A DNA stretch of 52,822 nt from Sharpea azabuensis DSM 18934 (GTDB lineage Bacteria; Bacillota_I; Bacilli_A; Erysipelotrichales; Coprobacillaceae), in NCBI RefSeq assembly GCF_000702165.1, contig NZ_JNKU01000013.1, positions 1 to 52,822 on the forward strand. Direction: 5' to 3'. Every line of letters begins with the position of its first letter. Position 1 is the stretch's first letter. A program made the translations under genes and the position numbers. The notes under the pieces were generated by a model. That model saw only the letters and a list, made by a program, of their open reading frames with translations. It was not told the origin of the DNA and ran no database searches. This document shows positions 21,342 to 42,861 of the stretch, piece by piece.

Positions 21342-22520
21342 TTAATGATGGAACAAACGTACATGTGTGAAAGCAAGTACCATATTATACTTATCAGCAA
21401 CTTCAATAACGTTATCATCACGTACTGAGCCACCTGCTTCACCAACATAGACTACACCAGAACGATGTGCTCTTTCCATGTTGTCACCAAATGGGAAGAA
21501 GGCATCTGAACCTAAAACAACATTCTTATTTGTCTTAAGCCATTCTTTCTGTGCCTGTCTTGTGAAGACTTCTGGACGTACTTTGAATGTATCCTGCCAG
21601 TTGTCATCACCATTGACATCCTCCCAGTCTTCTGATAGATAGACATCAATCGCATTATCACGTTCTGCACGTTTTAAAGTATCAACGAATTGAAGATTTA
21701 ATACTTGCGGTGACTGTCTTAAATACCATTTATCAGCTTTATCACCAGCTAAACGTGTACAATGAATACGGCTCTGCTGGCCAGCACCAATACCAATTGC
21801 CTGTCCATCTTTGACATAACATACAGAGTTAGACTGCGTATATTTTAAAGTAATCATTGAGATAATAAGATCTCTAATCGCAAAGTCAGGTAAGTCTTTG
21901 TTTTTTGAAACAATATCAGTAAATAAGTCCGGTGTAATTTCGATATTATTTCTACCCTGTTCAAAAGTTACACCAAAGACCTGTTTTCTCTCTATTTCAG
22001 CAGGTACATAATTAGGATCAATCTGAATAACACAATAGTTACCACGTTTCTTTGTCTTTAAGATTTCTAATGCTTCATCAGTATATCCAGGAGCAATAAT
22101 ACCATCGCTGACTTCTCTCTTAATCAGCTTAGCAGTTACAGCATCACAGACATCACTTAATGCACAGAAATCACCATAGCTGCTCATACGGTCACTACCC
22201 CTAGCCTTGATATAAGCATTTGCGACTGGCGATAATTCTTCATTAGATTCTTTTACGAAATACATTTGTCTTTCAACTTCACTTAATGGTGTACCCACTG
22301 CTACCCCTGCAGGAGATACATGCTTAAAGCTTGCCGCACAGACTTCACCTGTTGCCTTCTTGACTTCTTTGACAAGCTGCCAGCTGTTAAGAGCATCAAG
22401 TAAGTTAATATAACCTGGCTTACCATTCAACACCGTGAAAGGAAGATCCCCATCTTCCATGAAAACGCGTGCTGGCTTTTGATTAGGATTACAGCCATAC
22501 TTCAATTCAAGTTCCTTCAT
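21342..22520 (-). CDS. purH: Phosphoribosylaminoimidazolecarboxamide (AICAR) formyltransferase, stand-alone
   Basis: Carries out the penultimate step of IMP synthesis, adding a formyl group from 10-formyl-THF to AICAR (ZMP). The 392 residues cover only the transformylase half of PurH: KYGCNPNQKPA, ASFKHVSPAGVAVG (catalytic Lys-His region), and the C-terminal SDAFFPFGDNMERAH and GGSVRDDNVI. The N-terminal IMP cyclohydrolase domain of the usual ~510-residue bifunctional enzyme is absent, so cyclisation must be encoded elsewhere. A ZTP riboswitch precedes the gene, and its ligand is the substrate of this enzyme. The start has AGGAGGA upstream. Confidence 0.92.
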   Translation of the reverse strand: MKELELKYGCNPNQKPARVFMEDGDLPFTVLNGKPGYINLLDALNSWQLVKEVKKATGEVCAASFKHVSPAGVAVGTPLSEVERQMYFVKESNEELSPVANAYIKARGSDRMSSYGDFCALSDVCDAVTAKLIKREVSDGIIAPGYTDEALEILKTKKRGNYCVIQIDPNYVPAEIERKQVFGVTFEQGRNNIEITPDLFTDIVSKNKDLPDFAIRDLIISMITLKYTQSNSVCYVKDGQAIGIGAGQQSRIHCTRLAGDKADKWYLRQSPQVLNLQFVDTLKRAERDNAIDVYLSEDWEDVNGDDNWQDTFKVRPEVFTRQAQKEWLKTNKNVVLGSDAFFPFGDNMERAHRSGVVYVGEAGGSVRDDNVIEVADKYNMVLAFTHVRLFHH

Positions 22521-22544: not shown

Positions 22545-22648
22545 AAAAAAGAGCCTACTACCCCTGGCGCTTCTTCCTGCCCAGACGGTCGGCTCTACAA
22601 CGATTATACTTCATGTGGTTAATTCCACTTCCGCCAGTCGTATAACTA
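22545..22648 (-). promoter_or_regulatory. ZTP (pfl) riboswitch with terminator expression platform
   Basis: Minus-strand RNA from about 22648 contains ACTGGCGGAAGTGGA and AACCAC (first subdomain), then CCGACCGTCTGGGCA and GCGCCAGGGG (second subdomain). These match the conserved parts of the pfl/ZTP aptamer. GAGCC at the aptamer's 3' domain can pair with GGCTC before TTTTTT (22545-22556), giving a terminator that ligand binding should prevent. ZTP/ZMP accumulates when 10-formyl-THF is short, so control of AICAR transformylase is fully consistent. A TATATTATA-like -10 lies just upstream (about 22650-22660). Confidence 0.9.
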
Positions 22649-22765
22649 CCTATAATATATTATGTTTTCTTCTTTCAATCAAGAATATTTCTAGAAATTT
22701 CAAAAACCACTTCCATCAACATTGAATATCTTTCTTCTCCATCGTTATTATCCTATTTTCTTTCT

Positions 22766-35946: not shown

Positions 35947-35978
35947 CGAAAAAGAAAGACAGCCTAGCTATCTTTCTT
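35947..35978 (-). terminator. Intrinsic terminator ending the histidine operon
   Basis: AAGAAAGATAGC-TAG-GCTGTCTTTCTT (one G-U pair) followed by TTTCG on the minus strand. The hisJ stop codon is in the loop. Confidence 0.85.
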
Positions 35979-36752
35979 GCGCTTTGTAAAGGTTGTGACA
36001 TCTTCAAAGCCAATCTTTTGATAAGCCTTTAAGACATCTTCGACATGGCTGCCAACTGTTTCTACGACATGGCTATCACTGCCCACAGTGACAATTCTGC
36101 CGCCTAATTCATAATAACGTTTGATGATATCAAAGTTAGGAAAACCACATGTCTTATTCACTTTATAGCCCGATGTATTGACTTCAATGCCTTTACCTTT
36201 TTTAATTAACGTTAAAAGTATTTCATCAATGATATCTTGATAGGCTTGATGATCCACACTTTTATCAGTATATGGACCATAGCGCATTATATAATCAAGA
36301 TGTCCAAGGATATTGAAACAATCAAAGGTCTGTACACATTTGAGTGTTTCAAGGAAGAACTCTTTGTGGGCTTCTTCCTTTGTTTTATTTTTGAAATATT
36401 CACCATAATAGAATTCCGTATGATGGATGACATGGATGCTGCCAATGACAAAGTCAAATGGTGCACTAGCTACAAAATCATTAATTTCCTGAATATGATC
36501 TGTGTCCAATCCCATTTCTACACCAATCTTTACTTTGATCTGATTGGCATATTGATCTCTTAAAGCTTCCATTGTAGGAAAATAGCTTGATAGATCAAGT
36601 TCAAAGGGATCGATGGGATAGTCAAAGTCACGATGATCTGTAAAACAGATTTCATCAAAGCCATCTTTAATAGCTTTTTGAATATAGCTTTCTGGATTTG
36701 CCTCAGAATCAAAAGAGAATCTTGTATGCAGATGATAGTCAATCTTACGCAT
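35964..36752 (-). CDS. hisJ: Histidinol-phosphatase, PHP family
   Basis: Dephosphorylates L-histidinol phosphate. The ~262-residue PHP domain carries its metal ligands in [48 protein letters not shown] and [10 protein letters not shown] start at the ATG at 36752, eight bases inside the end of hisI, because AGGTG lies seven bases upstream; ATG at 36758 and GTG at 36761 are alternatives. It is the last gene of the operon before a terminator. The gene is also called hisK in some Firmicutes. Confidence 0.9.
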
Positions 36753-37098
36753 GTTCATCACCTACAAAAGTAATCTTTTTGACTTCTGGTAAGACTTCAT
36801 TGAAGAAGCATGAATAGCTACCTGTATGGCAGGCTACACCAACCTGTTCCACCTCAATCAACAATGTGTCTGCATCGCAATCAAGATACATGCTTTTGAT
36901 ATATTGCAGATGTCCGCTTGTCTCACCTTTATGCCATAACTCCTGACGGGAACGGCTATAGAAATAGGTTTCATGTGTCTTTAACATCATGTCATAAGCT
37001 TCTTCATTGACATAAGCTAACATCAAGACTTGTTTTGTATTGACATCCTGAACAATTGCCGGAATCATATTCTGCATTTTCTTAAAATCAGGTCTCAT
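36745..37098 (-). CDS. hisI: Phosphoribosyl-AMP cyclohydrolase
   Basis: Opens the adenine ring of PR-AMP in histidine synthesis. The 117 residues contain [10 protein letters not shown], the metal-binding [20 protein letters not shown] and a C-terminal Cys (SYSCFF). There is no HisE (PR-ATP pyrophosphatase) domain fused to it. The start at 37098 overlaps the hisF TGA as ATGA, so translation is coupled. An upstream in-frame start would extend into hisF and is unlikely. Confidence 0.93.
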
Positions 37099-37862
37099 CG
37101 ATTTCTCCTTACTGGAATATGGCGTTTCGCACATATCTCCTTCACTTCATCAACGGTAGCTTCCTGGTAGTGGAAAAGACTTGCGGCTAAAGCAGCATCA
37201 CAATTTGTCTTCTCGAAGACATCAGCAATATCTTCCTTGCCACCACATCCCCCACTGGCAATAACAGGAATATGTACAGCTTCTACAACAGTTTTCAACA
37301 TTTCAATATCAAAGCCTTCTCTTGTCCCATCAGCATCCATGCTTGTCAGCAATATTTCACCAGCACCTAATGCTTCACACTTCTTGACCCATTCAAGAAG
37401 ATCAATGCCGGTATTTTCTCTTCCCCCGGCAATATAGACATCCCAGCCGGAATGATCTTCACGCATTTTAGCATCAACAGCAACAACAACACACTGTACG
37501 CCAAATTCATCACTTGCTTCTTTGATCAATTGTGGATTCTTGATGGCAGCTGAGTTTACTGACACTTTATCCGCCCCCACCGAAAGAATCATGCGAAAAT
37601 CTTCAAGTGAGCGAATCCCGCCACCAACACATAGTGGAATGGAAAGCTCATTGGCAGCACGCTGAATGACATCTTTGATGATTCCGCGATCTTCATAGGT
37701 TGCCGTAATATCAAGAAAGACAACTTCATCAGCACACTGACGATCATATTCTTTAGCAAGCTCAACAGGATCGCCAACATCCTTCAAGCCCACAAAATTT
37801 ACCCCTTTAACAACCTTGCCATCCTTAATATCAAGACAAGGAATAATACGTTTAGCCAACAT
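37095..37862 (-). CDS. hisF: Imidazole glycerol phosphate synthase, cyclase subunit
   Basis: With HisH, turns PRFAR and ammonia into IGP and AICAR. The 255-residue (beta/alpha)8 barrel has the catalytic Asp in [15 protein letters not shown] and the second in [14 protein letters not shown]; phosphate loops are [12 protein letters not shown] and VIASGGCGG. It overlaps hisA by 11 bases and hisI by 4. AICAR made here feeds back to purine synthesis, where the window also encodes the AICAR transformylase. Confidence 0.96.
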
Positions 37863-38571
37863 TCTTGATCACCTCTTCTAGATGAATACGTCCTTCATAA
37901 TAAGCTTTGCCGACAATACATGCATAATAGCCTAGCTTATTGACTTCATAGACATCGTCATCATCTTTGACACCACCACTTACGACAAACTGGATCTTGG
38001 AGTGCTGGGCAATATTCTTATAGACAGGAAAACTTGGGCCTGTTAATGTGCCATCTTTGGAAATATCTGTACAGACAATCGTCTTGACGCCAATCTTTTC
38101 CAATTCATCAATAAAATCAAGATAATACACCTGACTTGTTTCTAGCCAGCCACTTGTCGAAACATAGCCATCACGTATATCCACCCCAACAACAATCCTT
38201 TCCGATCCATAGTCCTCTATGCAGGCTTTCACAAACTCAGGATTCTCTAAGGCCACCGTACCAAGAATAACACGATTAATACCAACATTATTTAAATAGA
38301 AATCAACTGTTTCCTTATCCCTTATGCCACCGCCAAGTTCCATCGGAATAGAGATGGCCTCACGCATCTTTTTGATAGTTTCCTTATTGGATGCCTTGGC
38401 ATCCTTAGCACCATCTAAATCGACGACATGAAGATACTTTGCTCCCATGTCTTCAAACGTCTTGGCAAGTTCTTCAGGATGGGAAGAATAGACTGTTTTT
38501 TGTTTATAATCACCTTTATAAAGACGGACAGCTTCACCGCCTTGCAGGTCTATTGCAGGAATGACTAACAT
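37852..38571 (-). CDS. hisA: ProFAR isomerase
   Basis: Isomerises ProFAR to PRFAR by an Amadori rearrangement. The 239-residue barrel has the catalytic Asp in [14 protein letters not shown] and the second in [24 protein letters not shown] and [12 protein letters not shown] form phosphate loops. Overlaps hisH by 7 bases and hisF by 11. Confidence 0.96.
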
Positions 38572-39176
38572 GATACCAACTCCTTGAATGCCAATAAGAT
38601 TTTCTTGCCGACTTCACCACTTTTTTCAGGATGGAACTGACAGCCGATAACATTATCCTTAATAACCACAGCTGGTACTTTCACACCGCCATATGAAGCA
38701 TAGGCAATCAGTTCATCATCAGTCGTATGGGCACGATACGAATGAACGAAGTAGACATAGTCTCCTTCCTGAACATATTTTAACAAGGGATGGGGATGAT
38801 TGATGACAAGCTGATTCCATCCCATATGAGGAATCTTGGCCTTGACATCATCCATGTACTTCACTTCACCATCGAGAAAACCTAAGCCCTTTGTTTCTTC
38901 GACTTCATAGCCCTTTTCAAATAAAACCTGCATGCCTAGGCAGATGCCCATGATGGGTGTTTTTTTTGCTTTGACTTCGTTGAGGACCTCAATAAGATGT
39001 TCATTTTCTAAATTCTTCATTGCCACAGGGAATGTTCCAACACCCGGCAAGATCACTCCATCAGCCTGAAGAATGACTTCAGGATCACTTGTAACTTCAA
39101 CATCCATATCTAGACGTCTTAAGGCATTTGTGACTGAACCCAAATTACCTACATGATAATCAATGACAGCAATCAT
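38565..39176 (-). CDS. hisH: Imidazole glycerol phosphate synthase, glutaminase subunit
   Basis: A 203-residue class I glutamine amidotransferase that passes ammonia to HisF. The nucleophile Cys is in MGICLGMQVLFE; the His-Glu pair is in CQFHPEKSG. VILPGVGTFP is the oxyanion-side loop. It starts directly after the hisB stop and overlaps hisA by seven bases. Confidence 0.96.
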   Translation of the reverse strand: MIAVIDYHVGNLGSVTNALRRLDMDVEVTSDPEVILQADGVILPGVGTFPVAMKNLENEHLIEVLNEVKAKKTPIMGICLGMQVLFEKGYEVEETKGLGFLDGEVKYMDDVKAKIPHMGWNQLVINHPHPLLKYVQEGDYVYFVHSYRAHTTDDELIAYASYGGVKVPAVVIKDNVIGCQFHPEKSGEVGKKILLAFKELVSC

Positions 39177-39764
39177 CTACAACACCCCTTTAGAAGATAC
39201 AATTTCATCACGATATTTCTCATTAATCGTTACGGCTTCTTTAAGAGCTCTTGCAAAGCTCTTAAAACATGCTTCAATGACATGATGCATATTCTTGCCA
39301 TAGGCTTCATTGAAATGCAGGGTCATGCCACTATTGAAGGCAAAGGCTCTAAAGAATTCTTCGGTCATTTCTGTCTGATAATTGCCAAGCAAGACATTAT
39401 CGAGCGTGACATTGAAGACAAGGAAAGGACGGCCTGATAAGTCAAGATTGCAGGCAACTAAGGCTTCATCCATAGGAATGGTGAAGGCGCCATAGCGTGT
39501 AATGCCCTTCTTGTCACCTAATGCCTGGCTGAGACATTGTCCTAAGACAATGCCTAGATCTTCAATCGTATGATGACTATCGACCTGTAAGTCACCATCA
39601 ACTCTGACATAGAGGTCAAACTTGCCATGAAAGGCCAGCAGTTCCAACATATGGTCCATAAAGCCCACACCTGTAGAAACATCTACCTGGCCACTTCCAT
39701 CCAAATTCAAATCAACCTTGACCTTAGTCTCTTTGGTATCTCTTGCAATATGTGCTTCTCGCAT
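39177..39764 (-). CDS. hisB: Imidazoleglycerol-phosphate dehydratase
   Basis: Manganese-dependent dehydration of IGP to imidazole acetol phosphate. The 195-residue mono-functional form shows STGVGFMDHMLELLAFHG, DSHHTIEDLGIVLGQ and the C-terminal NEAYGKNMHHVIEACFKSF, each supplying His/Glu metal ligands. There is no fused phosphatase domain, consistent with a separate PHP phosphatase at the end of the operon. Three bases after hisD. Confidence 0.97.
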   Translation of the reverse strand: MREAHIARDTKETKVKVDLNLDGSGQVDVSTGVGFMDHMLELLAFHGKFDLYVRVDGDLQVDSHHTIEDLGIVLGQCLSQALGDKKGITRYGAFTIPMDEALVACNLDLSGRPFLVFNVTLDNVLLGNYQTEMTEEFFRAFAFNSGMTLHFNEAYGKNMHHVIEACFKSFARALKEAVTINEKYRDEIVSSKGVL

Positions 39765-39767
39765 AGA

Positions 39768-41066
39768 CTAATCCTCCTCGAATCTCACTTTTAAGCTATT
39801 CGCATGAGCATCCAAGCCTTCCTTATGCGCGAATGTCATCACATCATCCTTAAATGTCGCTAAGACTTCTTTTGGATAATAAGAATAAGCAGAATGTTTA
39901 ATAAAATCATATACGCCTAAAGCACTATAGAACTTCGCTGTACCACCTGTTGGTAAGACATGGTTTGTCCCTGACATATAGTCACCAAGAGGTTCTGGGG
40001 AATATTCTCCCAAGAAGATACTTCCAGCATTTGTGATCAGAGGAAGTGCTTCGATAGGATTAGCAGTTAAGACTTCAAGATGCTCTGGTGCTAGGTCATT
40101 TGAGACTTCAAAGGCATGTTTCAAGTCATCAGCAAGAACAGCCCCACCATAATTCTTAATTGATTCACGAATAATGTCCTCTCTAGGCAAGCTGACAACC
40201 TGTCTTTCAAGTTCCTGATCCACTTCATCAATCAGTTTTTCACTTGTCGTAATCAGGATAGCTGATGCAAGACGATCATGTTCAGCCTGACTCATCAAGT
40301 CAGCAGCAACATATTTAGGATTAGCAGTTTCATCAGCTACAATAAGTATTTCTGATGGTCCAGCAATCATATCAATATCAACAACGCCATAACATAACTT
40401 CTTAGCCGTGGCGACAAAGATATTCCCTGGTCCAACAATCTTATCCGCTTTCTTGATGGTTTTAGTGCCATAGGCAGCAGCAGCTACACCTTGTGCCCCA
40501 CCTGCTTTATAGATTGTTTCAATACCAGCGACATAAGCTGCAGCTAATATAACATCCGATACCTTGCCATCAGCCTTGACTGGCGTAATGATATAGAGGT
40601 GTTTGACACCAGCTAGTTTAGCAGGAATGGCATTCATCATGACGGTTGAAGGATATGTTGCGGTTCCACCTGGTACATAGAGCGCAACGGTATCAATTGG
40701 TGTGACCTTGCTGCCAAGAATAACACCATCTTCCTTATAAATAGCCCAGCTTTTTTCAATCTGGTTTTTATGATATGTGATCAGCTGCTCTTTTGTTCGT
40801 TCAAGAATACGAATGAAATCTGGACCGATACGTGTAACAGCATCCATGATTTCCTGCTTCGTTACAATAAGATCTGCTGTACTTTCTGGTTTAAAGCCAT
40901 CAAACTTGGCACAATATTCCAAGAGTGCCTTATCTCCCCCATTAGCGACATTGGTAATAATGTCAAGAACACTCTTGTTGACTTCGGCTGAAATTTCAGT
41001 CTTACGGCCATGTAATTTTGTTTCTATTTCTTTAAGATTCCCCTTAAATGTCATTCTTTTCAACAT
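39768..41066 (-). CDS. hisD: Histidinol dehydrogenase
   Basis: Oxidises L-histidinol to L-histidine in two NAD-dependent steps. At 432 residues it is full length. Recognisable are VALYVPGGTATYPSTVMM, KIVGPGNIFVATAKKL, DMIAGPSEILIVAD, the zinc/catalytic DLMSQAEHD, and NDLAPEHLE. It starts two bases after the hisG stop, with GGGGG upstream. Confidence 0.97.
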   Translation of the reverse strand: MLKRMTFKGNLKEIETKLHGRKTEISAEVNKSVLDIITNVANGGDKALLEYCAKFDGFKPESTADLIVTKQEIMDAVTRIGPDFIRILERTKEQLITYHKNQIEKSWAIYKEDGVILGSKVTPIDTVALYVPGGTATYPSTVMMNAIPAKLAGVKHLYIITPVKADGKVSDVILAAAYVAGIETIYKAGGAQGVAAAAYGTKTIKKADKIVGPGNIFVATAKKLCYGVVDIDMIAGPSEILIVADETANPKYVAADLMSQAEHDRLASAILITTSEKLIDEVDQELERQVVSLPREDIIRESIKNYGGAVLADDLKHAFEVSNDLAPEHLEVLTANPIEALPLITNAGSIFLGEYSPEPLGDYMSGTNHVLPTGGTAKFYSALGVYDFIKHSAYSYYPKEVLATFKDDVMTFAHKEGLDAHANSLKVRFEED

Positions 41067-41068
41067 CG

Positions 41069-41689
41069 TTATTCGTCCCCCTTTAATGCATTGATGAGTT
41101 TAAAGATCTCATCACGTTTATATTTATAGCTGACTTTATTGACAACCATGCGGGTTGATACATCAGCAACCTTATCAATCACTTCAAGACCATTAGCCTT
41201 AAGTGTTGAACCTGTTTCAACAATATCAACAATCGCATCACTCAGTCCGACAACCGGTCCTAGTTCAACAGAACCTTCTAACTTAATGATTTCGACATCT
41301 TCTCTTTGGTTCGCAAAGTATTGTTTGGCGACCTTAGTATACTTTGATGCAATTTTCTTACGGCGTTCAAAATGCTTTTCTTTATATTCTGGATAGGCAC
41401 ATAGTGCGAAGTAGCACTTGCCAATCTCAAGATCCAGCATTTCATAATAATCATCATAATCTGATTCCATTAAGGTATCCGATCCGACAAATCCCACATC
41501 AACAATGCCATGTTCAAGAAATGTCAGCACATCATTGCTTTTCGCAAAGATCATCTGGATGCCATCCTTTGTCTCAATAAGTAGTTCACGATCTTTATTG
41601 AAGATGGGATCCATGTCAAAGCCTTGTTTAGCGAGCAGTTGACAAACCTGCTTTTCAATACGTCCTTTCGTAATCGCAATTTTAATCAT
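41069..41689 (-). CDS. hisG: ATP phosphoribosyltransferase, short form
   Basis: First enzyme of the pathway, joining ATP and PRPP. The ~206-residue short form (HisG-S) lacks the regulatory C-terminal domain and needs His[14 protein letters not shown] opens it; [20 protein letters not shown], then [11 protein letters not shown], forms the PRPP loop. I use the ATG at 41689, since AGGAGG lies nine bases upstream; an ATG at 41698 abuts that site. It overlaps hisZ by eight bases. Confidence 0.95.
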
Positions 41690-42647
41690 TGGCTTCATCC
41701 TCCTTGCTTAATGCTTCAAGTAATGTATTTAAGTGATAGGAGAAGCCAATGGCTGGCACTTCCTTATCAAAATAGCTTAAGAGCTTATCATAGCGTCCAC
41801 CAGAGAGAATAGCATAGGCTGAATAGTAACTATAGCCCTTGATCATGATGCCCGTATAGTAATTCTGAGTAGGCACCATGCAGAGATCAAAGACCATATT
41901 TTCTTTCATAGTACTGATGTCATACATGGCCATCATTTCATCAATCGCTTCAATCAATATCTCATCATCGATGATTTCTCTCATCTTCTTTAAATCATTG
42001 ATATCACCAAATGAATAAGGCAGCTTCAATAAGAGTTCTTTAAGTGAACCCGTAAAGCCTTTTTCTTCCACAAAGCTTTTCATCAGTGAGTTTGCTTTCT
42101 TATCAAGAATATAACGCAAACGTTCATCTTGTACGAGCGTCTCTAAGCGATGGAAGAATTTTGCATGACCAAGTTCAAGCTTGCAATTGGTGATGCCAAT
42201 GGATTGCAAAGATGCTTCAACAAGTTCTAAGCACTCAGCATCGCCCTCATAACCACCTTTACCAAGAAGTTCCATACCACCCTGATAGAGTTCACTGCTT
42301 CTTCCCTTATGACGTTCCTGAATACGATAGACCTTACCAAAATAGCTATAACGTCTTGTCTCACTTGTATGGGCATTATTGTAAAGACGGGCAATCGGAA
42401 CGGTAAAGTCAGCACGTAAGGTAATCAGCTTGCCTTCCCCATTGACGAATTCAAACATGCTTTCTTCATTATCATTACGGATTTCCTGATAAAGGTTGGC
42501 ATATTCAAATGTCGGTAACATCAGTTCTTCATAACCATGGGCTTGAAAGAGATTTCTCAGCTGGCTTTCGATTGAACGCAATTTTGAAGCATCAAGACTT
42601 GCCGCATCCGTACTTTCTTCCGGTATTAAATATTTAAATTCTTCCAT
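41682..42647 (-). CDS. hisZ: ATP phosphoribosyltransferase regulatory subunit
   Basis: A 321-residue HisRS-like paralogue without tRNA charging activity; it assembles with short HisG and gives histidine feedback control. Class II synthetase-like motifs are seen ([52 protein letters not shown]) but the protein is shorter than a HisRS and lacks the anticodon domain. First structural gene after the attenuator, with AAGGAGAGG upstream. Confidence 0.95.
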
Positions 42648-42664
42648 AACTTCCTCTCCTTAAA

Positions 42665-42691
42665 GAAAAAAGCGGGTTACTAATAACCCAC
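42665..42691 (-). terminator. Attenuator terminator of the histidine operon
   Basis: GTGGGTTA-TTAG-TAACCCGC (one G-U pair) followed by TTTTTTC on the minus strand, between the leader peptide and hisZ. Confidence 0.92.
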
Positions 42692-42763
42692 TTAGAAATA
42701 TTGAGTATTAGATCACAGTCCTTATTTATATGTCAAAGGGGACTGTATCCTGATGATACAACC

Positions 42764-42817
42764 CTAGGTTCTGTGATGATGGCGATGTAATTTTGAATAG
42801 TTTCTTGTGTTTTTCAT
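42764..42817 (-). CDS. hisL: His-rich leader peptide of the histidine operon
   Basis: A 17-residue peptide, MKNTRNYSKLHRHHHRT, with four His codons within five positions, preceded by GAGG and followed by an attenuator. The composition and position are those of an amino-acid-sensing leader peptide. Confidence 0.85.
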   Translation of the reverse strand: MKNTRNYSKLHRHHHRT

Positions 42818-42861
42818 AAATATCTACCTCGCTTGTTGTAATAATAGCACAAGAGCGTATG

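Follow-up and report, generated by a model that had tools for sequence, protein, structure and literature searches.

A candidate histidine leader-peptide attenuator before the his operon of Sharpea azabuensis and similarly built leaders of aromatic genes

Described attenuators and the Sharpea his leader

Ashniev et al. (2022, BMC Genomics 23:558, PMC9413887) describe candidate attenuators with a histidine leader peptide for the B. cereus group, five Eubacteriales and six Erysipelotrichales species, the last from the genera Eggerthia, Erysipelatoclostridium, Catenibacterium, Coprobacillus and [Clostridium]; there these attenuators replace T-boxes and HisR, and the enteric his leader family RF00514 is stated to have no match in Firmicutes. 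Naville and Gautheret (2010, PMC2965389) reported that hisZ and hisS* of bacilli are preceded by a His leader peptide. The ilv-leu operon of S. aureus is reported to carry a leucine-rich attenuator peptide (PMC5794164), likewise ribosome-mediated in a Firmicute and differing in the amino acid.

We analyzed a 52,822-nucleotide stretch of the Sharpea azabuensis genome (the window), on whose minus strand a leader with a short ORF, alternative hairpins and a terminator lies between an extended −10 element and hisZGDBHAFI. The enteric his attenuator (hisL; RF00514) shares with this leader a His-run peptide, an intrinsic terminator and the his operon as its target. Its six-segment A to F logic is also like that of the Sharpea leader, and its peptide has seven His codons against four in Sharpea. 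Searched against Rfam at gathering scores and at E-values up to 10, the Sharpea leader matched no family, and RF00514 was not found at either level. The enteric style that the original prediction had ascribed to this leader thus fits the proposed mechanism and does not extend to a match with the enteric family.

The closest described elements are the Erysipelotrichales attenuators of PMC9413887, with which, as they are described in words, the Sharpea leader shares the order, the operon and the arrangement of 3-5 His codons in a row before attenuator, antiterminator and terminator hairpins. The differences are that the genus is not in the table of that study as available and that the Sharpea run is interrupted (HRHHH), one His codon being set apart from three consecutive ones, in keeping with the 3-5 of that study; the Sharpea peptide also differs from its relatives in having no Trp codon, which is usual among them. 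Sharpea belongs to the Erysipelotrichales and, like Catenibacterium, to the family Coprobacillaceae. By order, family, operon and layout as worded in PMC9413887, the candidate Sharpea element belongs with these attenuators and would add one genus to the reported class. The leader of hisZ and hisS* in bacilli (PMC2965389; for the B. cereus group his operon, PMC9413887) is similar in placing a His-codon ORF before hisZ in Firmicutes, and is set apart by its literature description as a separate lineage. The original prediction calls T-box control of amino acid genes more familiar in Firmicutes. For this order, leaders of the present type are already published (PMC9413887) and, as described below, they are the rule in Coprobacillaceae and no oddity.

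Layout of the leader and its operon

All features of the leader lie on the minus strand. The extended −10 promoter element TGCTATTAT (TG-n-TATTAT) occupies positions 42841-42849, and a TATGnTAnnAT-like element is found at the matching position upstream of most of 35 distinct Coprobacillaceae leaders; a consensus promoter scan of the Sharpea leader called no promoter because the −35 element is weak. A Shine-Dalgarno GAGG (42827-42830), within a GAGGTG conserved across the family, precedes an ORF of 17 codons and a TAG stop (42764-42817; ATG at 42817-42815, TAG at 42766-42764) that encodes MKNTRNYSKLHRHHHRT, identical to the 17-residue peptide with clustered His codons that had been predicted. 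Within this ORF, segment A (CAT CGC CAT CAT CAC, 42773-42787) has His codons at four of five positions and is the putative stall site. Segment B (GGGTTGTATC, 42755-42764) has the G of TAG as its first base and is almost invariant among the 35 leaders; segment C (GATACAGTCC, 42740-42749) has B or D1 as its partner, as assigned from the alignment and pair counts.

Segment D has two parts, D1 (GGACTGTGATC, 42711-42721), predicted to pair with C in the termination form, and D2 (CTAATACTC, 42703-42711), the antiterminator partner of E that was chosen by RNAalifold. Segment E (GGGTTATTAG, 42680-42689) is the target of D2 and comprises the 5′ arm and loop of the terminator, and the D2:E helix has a 1-nt bulge in Sharpea. 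Folding also shows that ATCACAG of the Sharpea segment A is able to pair with CTGTGAT of segment D. The terminator hairpin E:F (AAGTGGGTTA-TTAG-TAACCCGCTT, 42670-42693) has 10 pairs followed by a T-rich tail (42662-42669), and 22 bases separate the terminator end from hisZ. One terminator-like hairpin is present in the leader, against an average of 0.1 in shuffles, and the 198-nt leader folds more stably than its dinucleotide shuffles (z = −2.3). The interval originally proposed for the element, 42665-42850, fits this layout well.

Right behind segment C lies the motif CCCRUUUUG (window 42731-42739), which hardly varies among His leaders and is frequent in the aromatic leaders described below; none of the helices accounts for its U-run. 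This motif might act as a pausing site for the polymerase just after the B:C hairpin. We also considered a direct antiterminator between AACCTA at the stop codon and the arm of the terminator, and rejected it because this pairing is not conserved.

The operon behind the leader was identified gene by gene on the minus strand, in agreement with the his operon originally proposed there. Its first gene, hisZ (41682-42647), has TIGR00443 as its best NCBIfam model with a score under the cut-off of that model, and its product is 95% identical to HisZ of Sharpea porci. It is followed by hisG (41069-41698, PF01634), hisD (39768-41066, PF00815), the imidazoleglycerol-phosphate dehydratase gene hisB (39177-39764, PF00475), hisH (38565-39176, PF00117 and operon position), hisA (37852-38571) and hisF (37095-37862), both PF00977 and told apart by gene order and sequence start, and the phosphoribosyl-AMP cyclohydrolase gene hisI (36745-37134, PF01502). 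The next gene (35964-36761, PF02811) has a PHP domain and, from its context, probably encodes a hisK-like histidinol phosphatase. Upstream of the leader, a transporter gene (PF03547, 42892-43830) ends in a hairpin and a T-run.

Elsewhere in the window, a ZMP/ZTP riboswitch (RF01750, 56 bits; 22572-22651, minus strand) lies directly 5′ of a purH-like formyltransferase gene (21342-22520), and a glycogen-synthase-like protein (352-2871) has a very long N-terminal stretch of AEKKAETKAEVKPA-type repeats.

Conservation, alternative pairings and rival readings

HisZ is present in 40 of 43 Coprobacillaceae genomes. We examined 47 hisZ loci from the family genomes and named contigs, some of them duplicates of one place, and the survey of relatives proposed with the original prediction found a His-run leader peptide at all 47, representing 35 distinct leaders. 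The peptide lies 100-130 bases upstream of hisZ, in one case 233, and its run is mostly HHHHW, other forms being HHHHHW, HRHHHW and HHHHRHT. A short ATG-initiated ORF containing H.?H.?H occurs in 35 of 35 distinct leaders, in none of the 35 reverse strands and in 24 of 7000 dinucleotide shuffles, counts that are not independent as the leaders are related; the His-run ORF is beyond chance. The codons are mixed (110 CAT and 41 CAC in the 35 leaders) while the run in the peptide is kept. A covariance model built from these leaders (R1) gave matches with E <= 3e-13 in 39 of the 43 family genomes, one in each and all directly upstream of hisZ when coordinates were compared, which makes the candidate His attenuator class nearly universal in Coprobacillaceae and strictly tied to hisZ. 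No second copy was found by R1 in the Sharpea genome, where the next match has an E-value of 1.25, and the weak matches there (E > 1) were rejected as they have no core motif. Two matches of the order-wide search, one of them at the start of an MFS-like gene, were false positives. In one genome of the family, four contigs carry at their ends an identical stretch of more than 100 bases with a terminator, probably a repeated mobile element that broke the assembly.

The alternative hairpins and terminator of the original prediction are present and conserved across the family. On the His-leader alignment RNAalifold selects B:C together with D2:E, for which 93% of cells in the 35 leaders are standard pairs (B:C 90.6%, D2:E 96.8%); with the partners slid, the value is 30-44%. 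The combination C:D and E:F is likewise paired in 93% of cells, and variants in which C and D pair in another register still keep C:D. In D2:E, both sides change from G-C to A-U in three leaders, Sharpea among them; covariation is limited because many pairs are invariant. The strongest individual indication for use of D2:E is the ATTAG part of E, which in many relatives lies within the terminator loop, dispensable for the terminator, and is conserved all the same.

These features support ribosome-mediated transcription attenuation, enteric-like in its working, as the control of the his operon, a candidate mechanism drawn from sequence and predicted folds to which we give a probability of roughly 0.9. 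The independent proposal of a ribosome-mediated mechanism for other Erysipelotrichales genera (PMC9413887) lends further support. From the arrangement we infer that the peptide is translated, that ribosomes stall on it, that charging of tRNA-His is sensed and in which direction the switch works. When charging of tRNA-His is low, a ribosome would stall on the His codons of segment A, B:C would form, and D would be left free for its CTAATA to pair with E. The D:E helix would block the terminator E:F and hisZGDBHAFI would be transcribed. With ample histidine, the ribosome would reach the stop codon that overlaps B and cover B, which would allow C:D and then E:F to form and transcription to terminate. 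If the leader is not translated, A is free to pair with D, which would likewise favour termination.

The direction of the switch was tested by comparing the energies of full leaders in which the ribosome footprint was masked and either D:E or E:F was forced. Compared with a stop-bound ribosome, a stalled one shifts the energy toward the antiterminator in 31 of the 35 related leaders, by a mean of 1.4 kcal/mol, and little in Sharpea; compared with no ribosome, it favours the antiterminator in 29 of 35 (2.7 kcal/mol). The effect of the mask is small in both Sharpea leaders (−1.0 kcal/mol in the window, −0.1 kcal/mol in S. porci), and in the window leader, with its bulge, one D:E pair alone could be forced. 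In transcripts cut before F, D:E is as likely with a stop-bound ribosome as with a stalled one, or likelier. In absolute energy the terminator remains the more stable form, and therefore kinetics must decide. C:D and D:E overlap by one base only in most His leaders, so their exclusivity is not given by secondary structure alone; C:D would hinder D:E despite the single shared base, and an adjacent ribosome at C may add steric hindrance. Overall, folding lends the switch modest support, and weak support in Sharpea itself.

A variant that is also coupled to translation differs in its OFF state, which would be set when the ribosome is released from the stop codon and not while it stands there. Free A would then pair with D, mimicking E, a stalled ribosome masking A would free D, and C:D would be an accessory. 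Such a variant could draw on the state with no ribosome, which is the most termination-prone in forced-structure energies and has the lowest D:E in cut transcripts, and on UCAUUGG, made up of the last His-run bases and the TGG after them, which can pair with D2 (CUAAUGA) in most relatives, in 91% of cells. In Sharpea, however, A pairs with D1 rather than D2, and covariation of A:D has no clear excess over shuffles. The conservation of C:D, variants in another register included, and its strong covariation in the aromatic set described below mean that C:D has a function. We consider release at the stop codon unlikely, while granting it appreciable weight. Far less probable is a constitutive premature terminator, or a leader sensing a protein or metabolite, with the His-rich ORF incidental. 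The terminator would act alone, translation of the ORF is deduced from its sequence, and the most stable fold is compatible with the absence of a ribosome, all of which such a reading would accommodate; what it leaves unexplained is a His run at one fixed place in every leader, a stop codon exactly at the switch hairpin, and homologous leaders of aromatic genes that carry aromatic runs at that same place.

Within the phylum T-boxes are the more frequent control, which counts against leader-peptide attenuation. Like the proposed attenuator, a T-box leader (RF00230) senses tRNA charging for amino acid genes of Firmicutes, and differs in sensing the tRNA directly, without translation. The Sharpea genome has 19 T-box matches, one of them on hisS (contig L012, 1275-1461; its specifier is probably His, CAC) and 13 above the cut-off, and his operons of other Erysipelotrichales are under T-boxes (PMC9413887). 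None of the 19 lies at the his operon, which agrees with the contrast to T-box control drawn in the original prediction; the leader has no RF00230 match at the gathering score or at E-values up to 10, and no T-box bulge sequence. Direct reading of tRNA-His by a T-box is thus the least credible of these alternatives, and we give it almost no weight. Under ribosome-mediated attenuation, one genome would sense histidine starvation in two ways, by translating a leader peptide at the biosynthetic operon and through a T-box at hisS.

Aromatic leaders and the scope of the design

R1 also matched leaders of aroB in another Erysipelotrichales family, at 48.2 bits with the peptide MNTICFVSRFYFYF (L096/L101) and at 39.7 bits with the peptide MKNLNLHNQTYFYYYAFR (L097/L115), as well as a leader with the peptide MTNQISFHVSSYYGYYH before the gene of a TrpX-like substrate-binding protein. 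Peptides with Tyr/Phe runs were found upstream of many of 30 aroB loci that were read. A second model (R2), built only from the RNA after the peptide of the aromatic leaders, gave 43 matches with E <= 1e-4 in the order, 41 of which lie directly before aroB by coordinates; another (L161) is upstream of an aroB start by translation, and one (L162) lies upstream of a DAHP synthase gene with the peptide MIKLDKKGFYYFYYR. A weaker match, with MKKDKLAIKTFSANYYYFYYS, precedes the gene of another TrpX-like ABC transporter substrate-binding protein. At the 30 best R2 loci an ORF with an aromatic run, which is not part of the model, stands at the expected place in 28, the other two being near contig ends outside the reach of the filter. 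Tyr/Phe leaders with B/C/D/E/F hairpins and a terminator precede aroB in about 42 genomes of the sister family (L101-L160; for example L101:1317-1481, L120:2515-2683 minus and L122:2495-2651 minus). Matches inside coding sequence (L129/L130) were set aside, and most of the matches with E > 1e-4 that were read are ordinary terminators.

For the aromatic set RNAalifold selects C:D and E:F, with covariation at 12 of 22 pairs. Here C:D takes up D bases that D:E also uses, which makes the two forms genuinely exclusive. The aromatic leader peptides are well supported. No Rfam family matched these leaders, and a literature search found no report of them before aroB, DAHP synthase or TrpX-like genes.

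His-run peptides are not confined to the Coprobacillaceae. Among 395 sampled genomes of the class Bacilli, as grouped in this collection, R1 found them in two further families of the class (MKSINLVQVHHHW, MTNAIFLQVHHHKT, MQPLTIQVQVHHHYHHKN, MKTNYNLLTQVHHHHKTGFDI and others), followed by hisZ-type genes in the cases tested; our literature search found no earlier report of His leaders before hisZ in these families. Five other class-wide matches (L193, L195-L198) are ordinary terminators. In these two families, L186-L192 and L194 show ..VQVHHH.. peptides before hisZ-type genes together with a related C/D/E core (GATACAAGCC / GGCTTGTATCTAT).

The His and aromatic RNAs have in common a GGG at the stop codon, a segment C ending in CC and followed by CCCRUUUUG, and UAUCUA in segment D. 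Run over the His loci, R2 gave 16 matches with E < 1, all on His leaders, a comparison limited by the fact that terminators alone raise R2 scores. Together, these matches and common motifs favour common descent of the His and aromatic leader RNAs, though convergence may account for them as well. On whether the Sharpea leader is a member of a design widespread in the class Bacilli, in which the RNA part was kept (B, C with CCCRUUUU, D with UAUCUA, E/F) and the sensing codons were exchanged, we see the odds as about even. In that design the His runs would stand before hisZ in Coprobacillaceae and two other families, and the Tyr/Phe runs of the sister family before aroB, a DAHP synthase gene and genes of a TrpX-like transporter.

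If common descent is true, leader-peptide attenuators change their amino acid specificity by re-coding one shared switch. With either His or Tyr/Phe codons placed before one switch, the long-standing question of the origin of leader-peptide attenuators and their change of specificity would become testable by comparison and by codon swaps in one RNA. The aromatic extension would also annotate many unexplained short ORFs upstream of aroB. These aromatic relatives are the part that a specialist may not know, and the extension weighs more than the His attenuator itself.

A second kind of aromatic leader was observed before aroB (L106, L110-L114, L117, L121, L125 and L128), with peptides such as MRNNAYFYYYE, MHNKGFYYYL and MSKPFSYYYFQ. 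Its RNA differs, having a hairpin around ..TTATAAAGCCAT..ATGGTTCTTTTTC..TTATAAC.. that is followed by a terminator.
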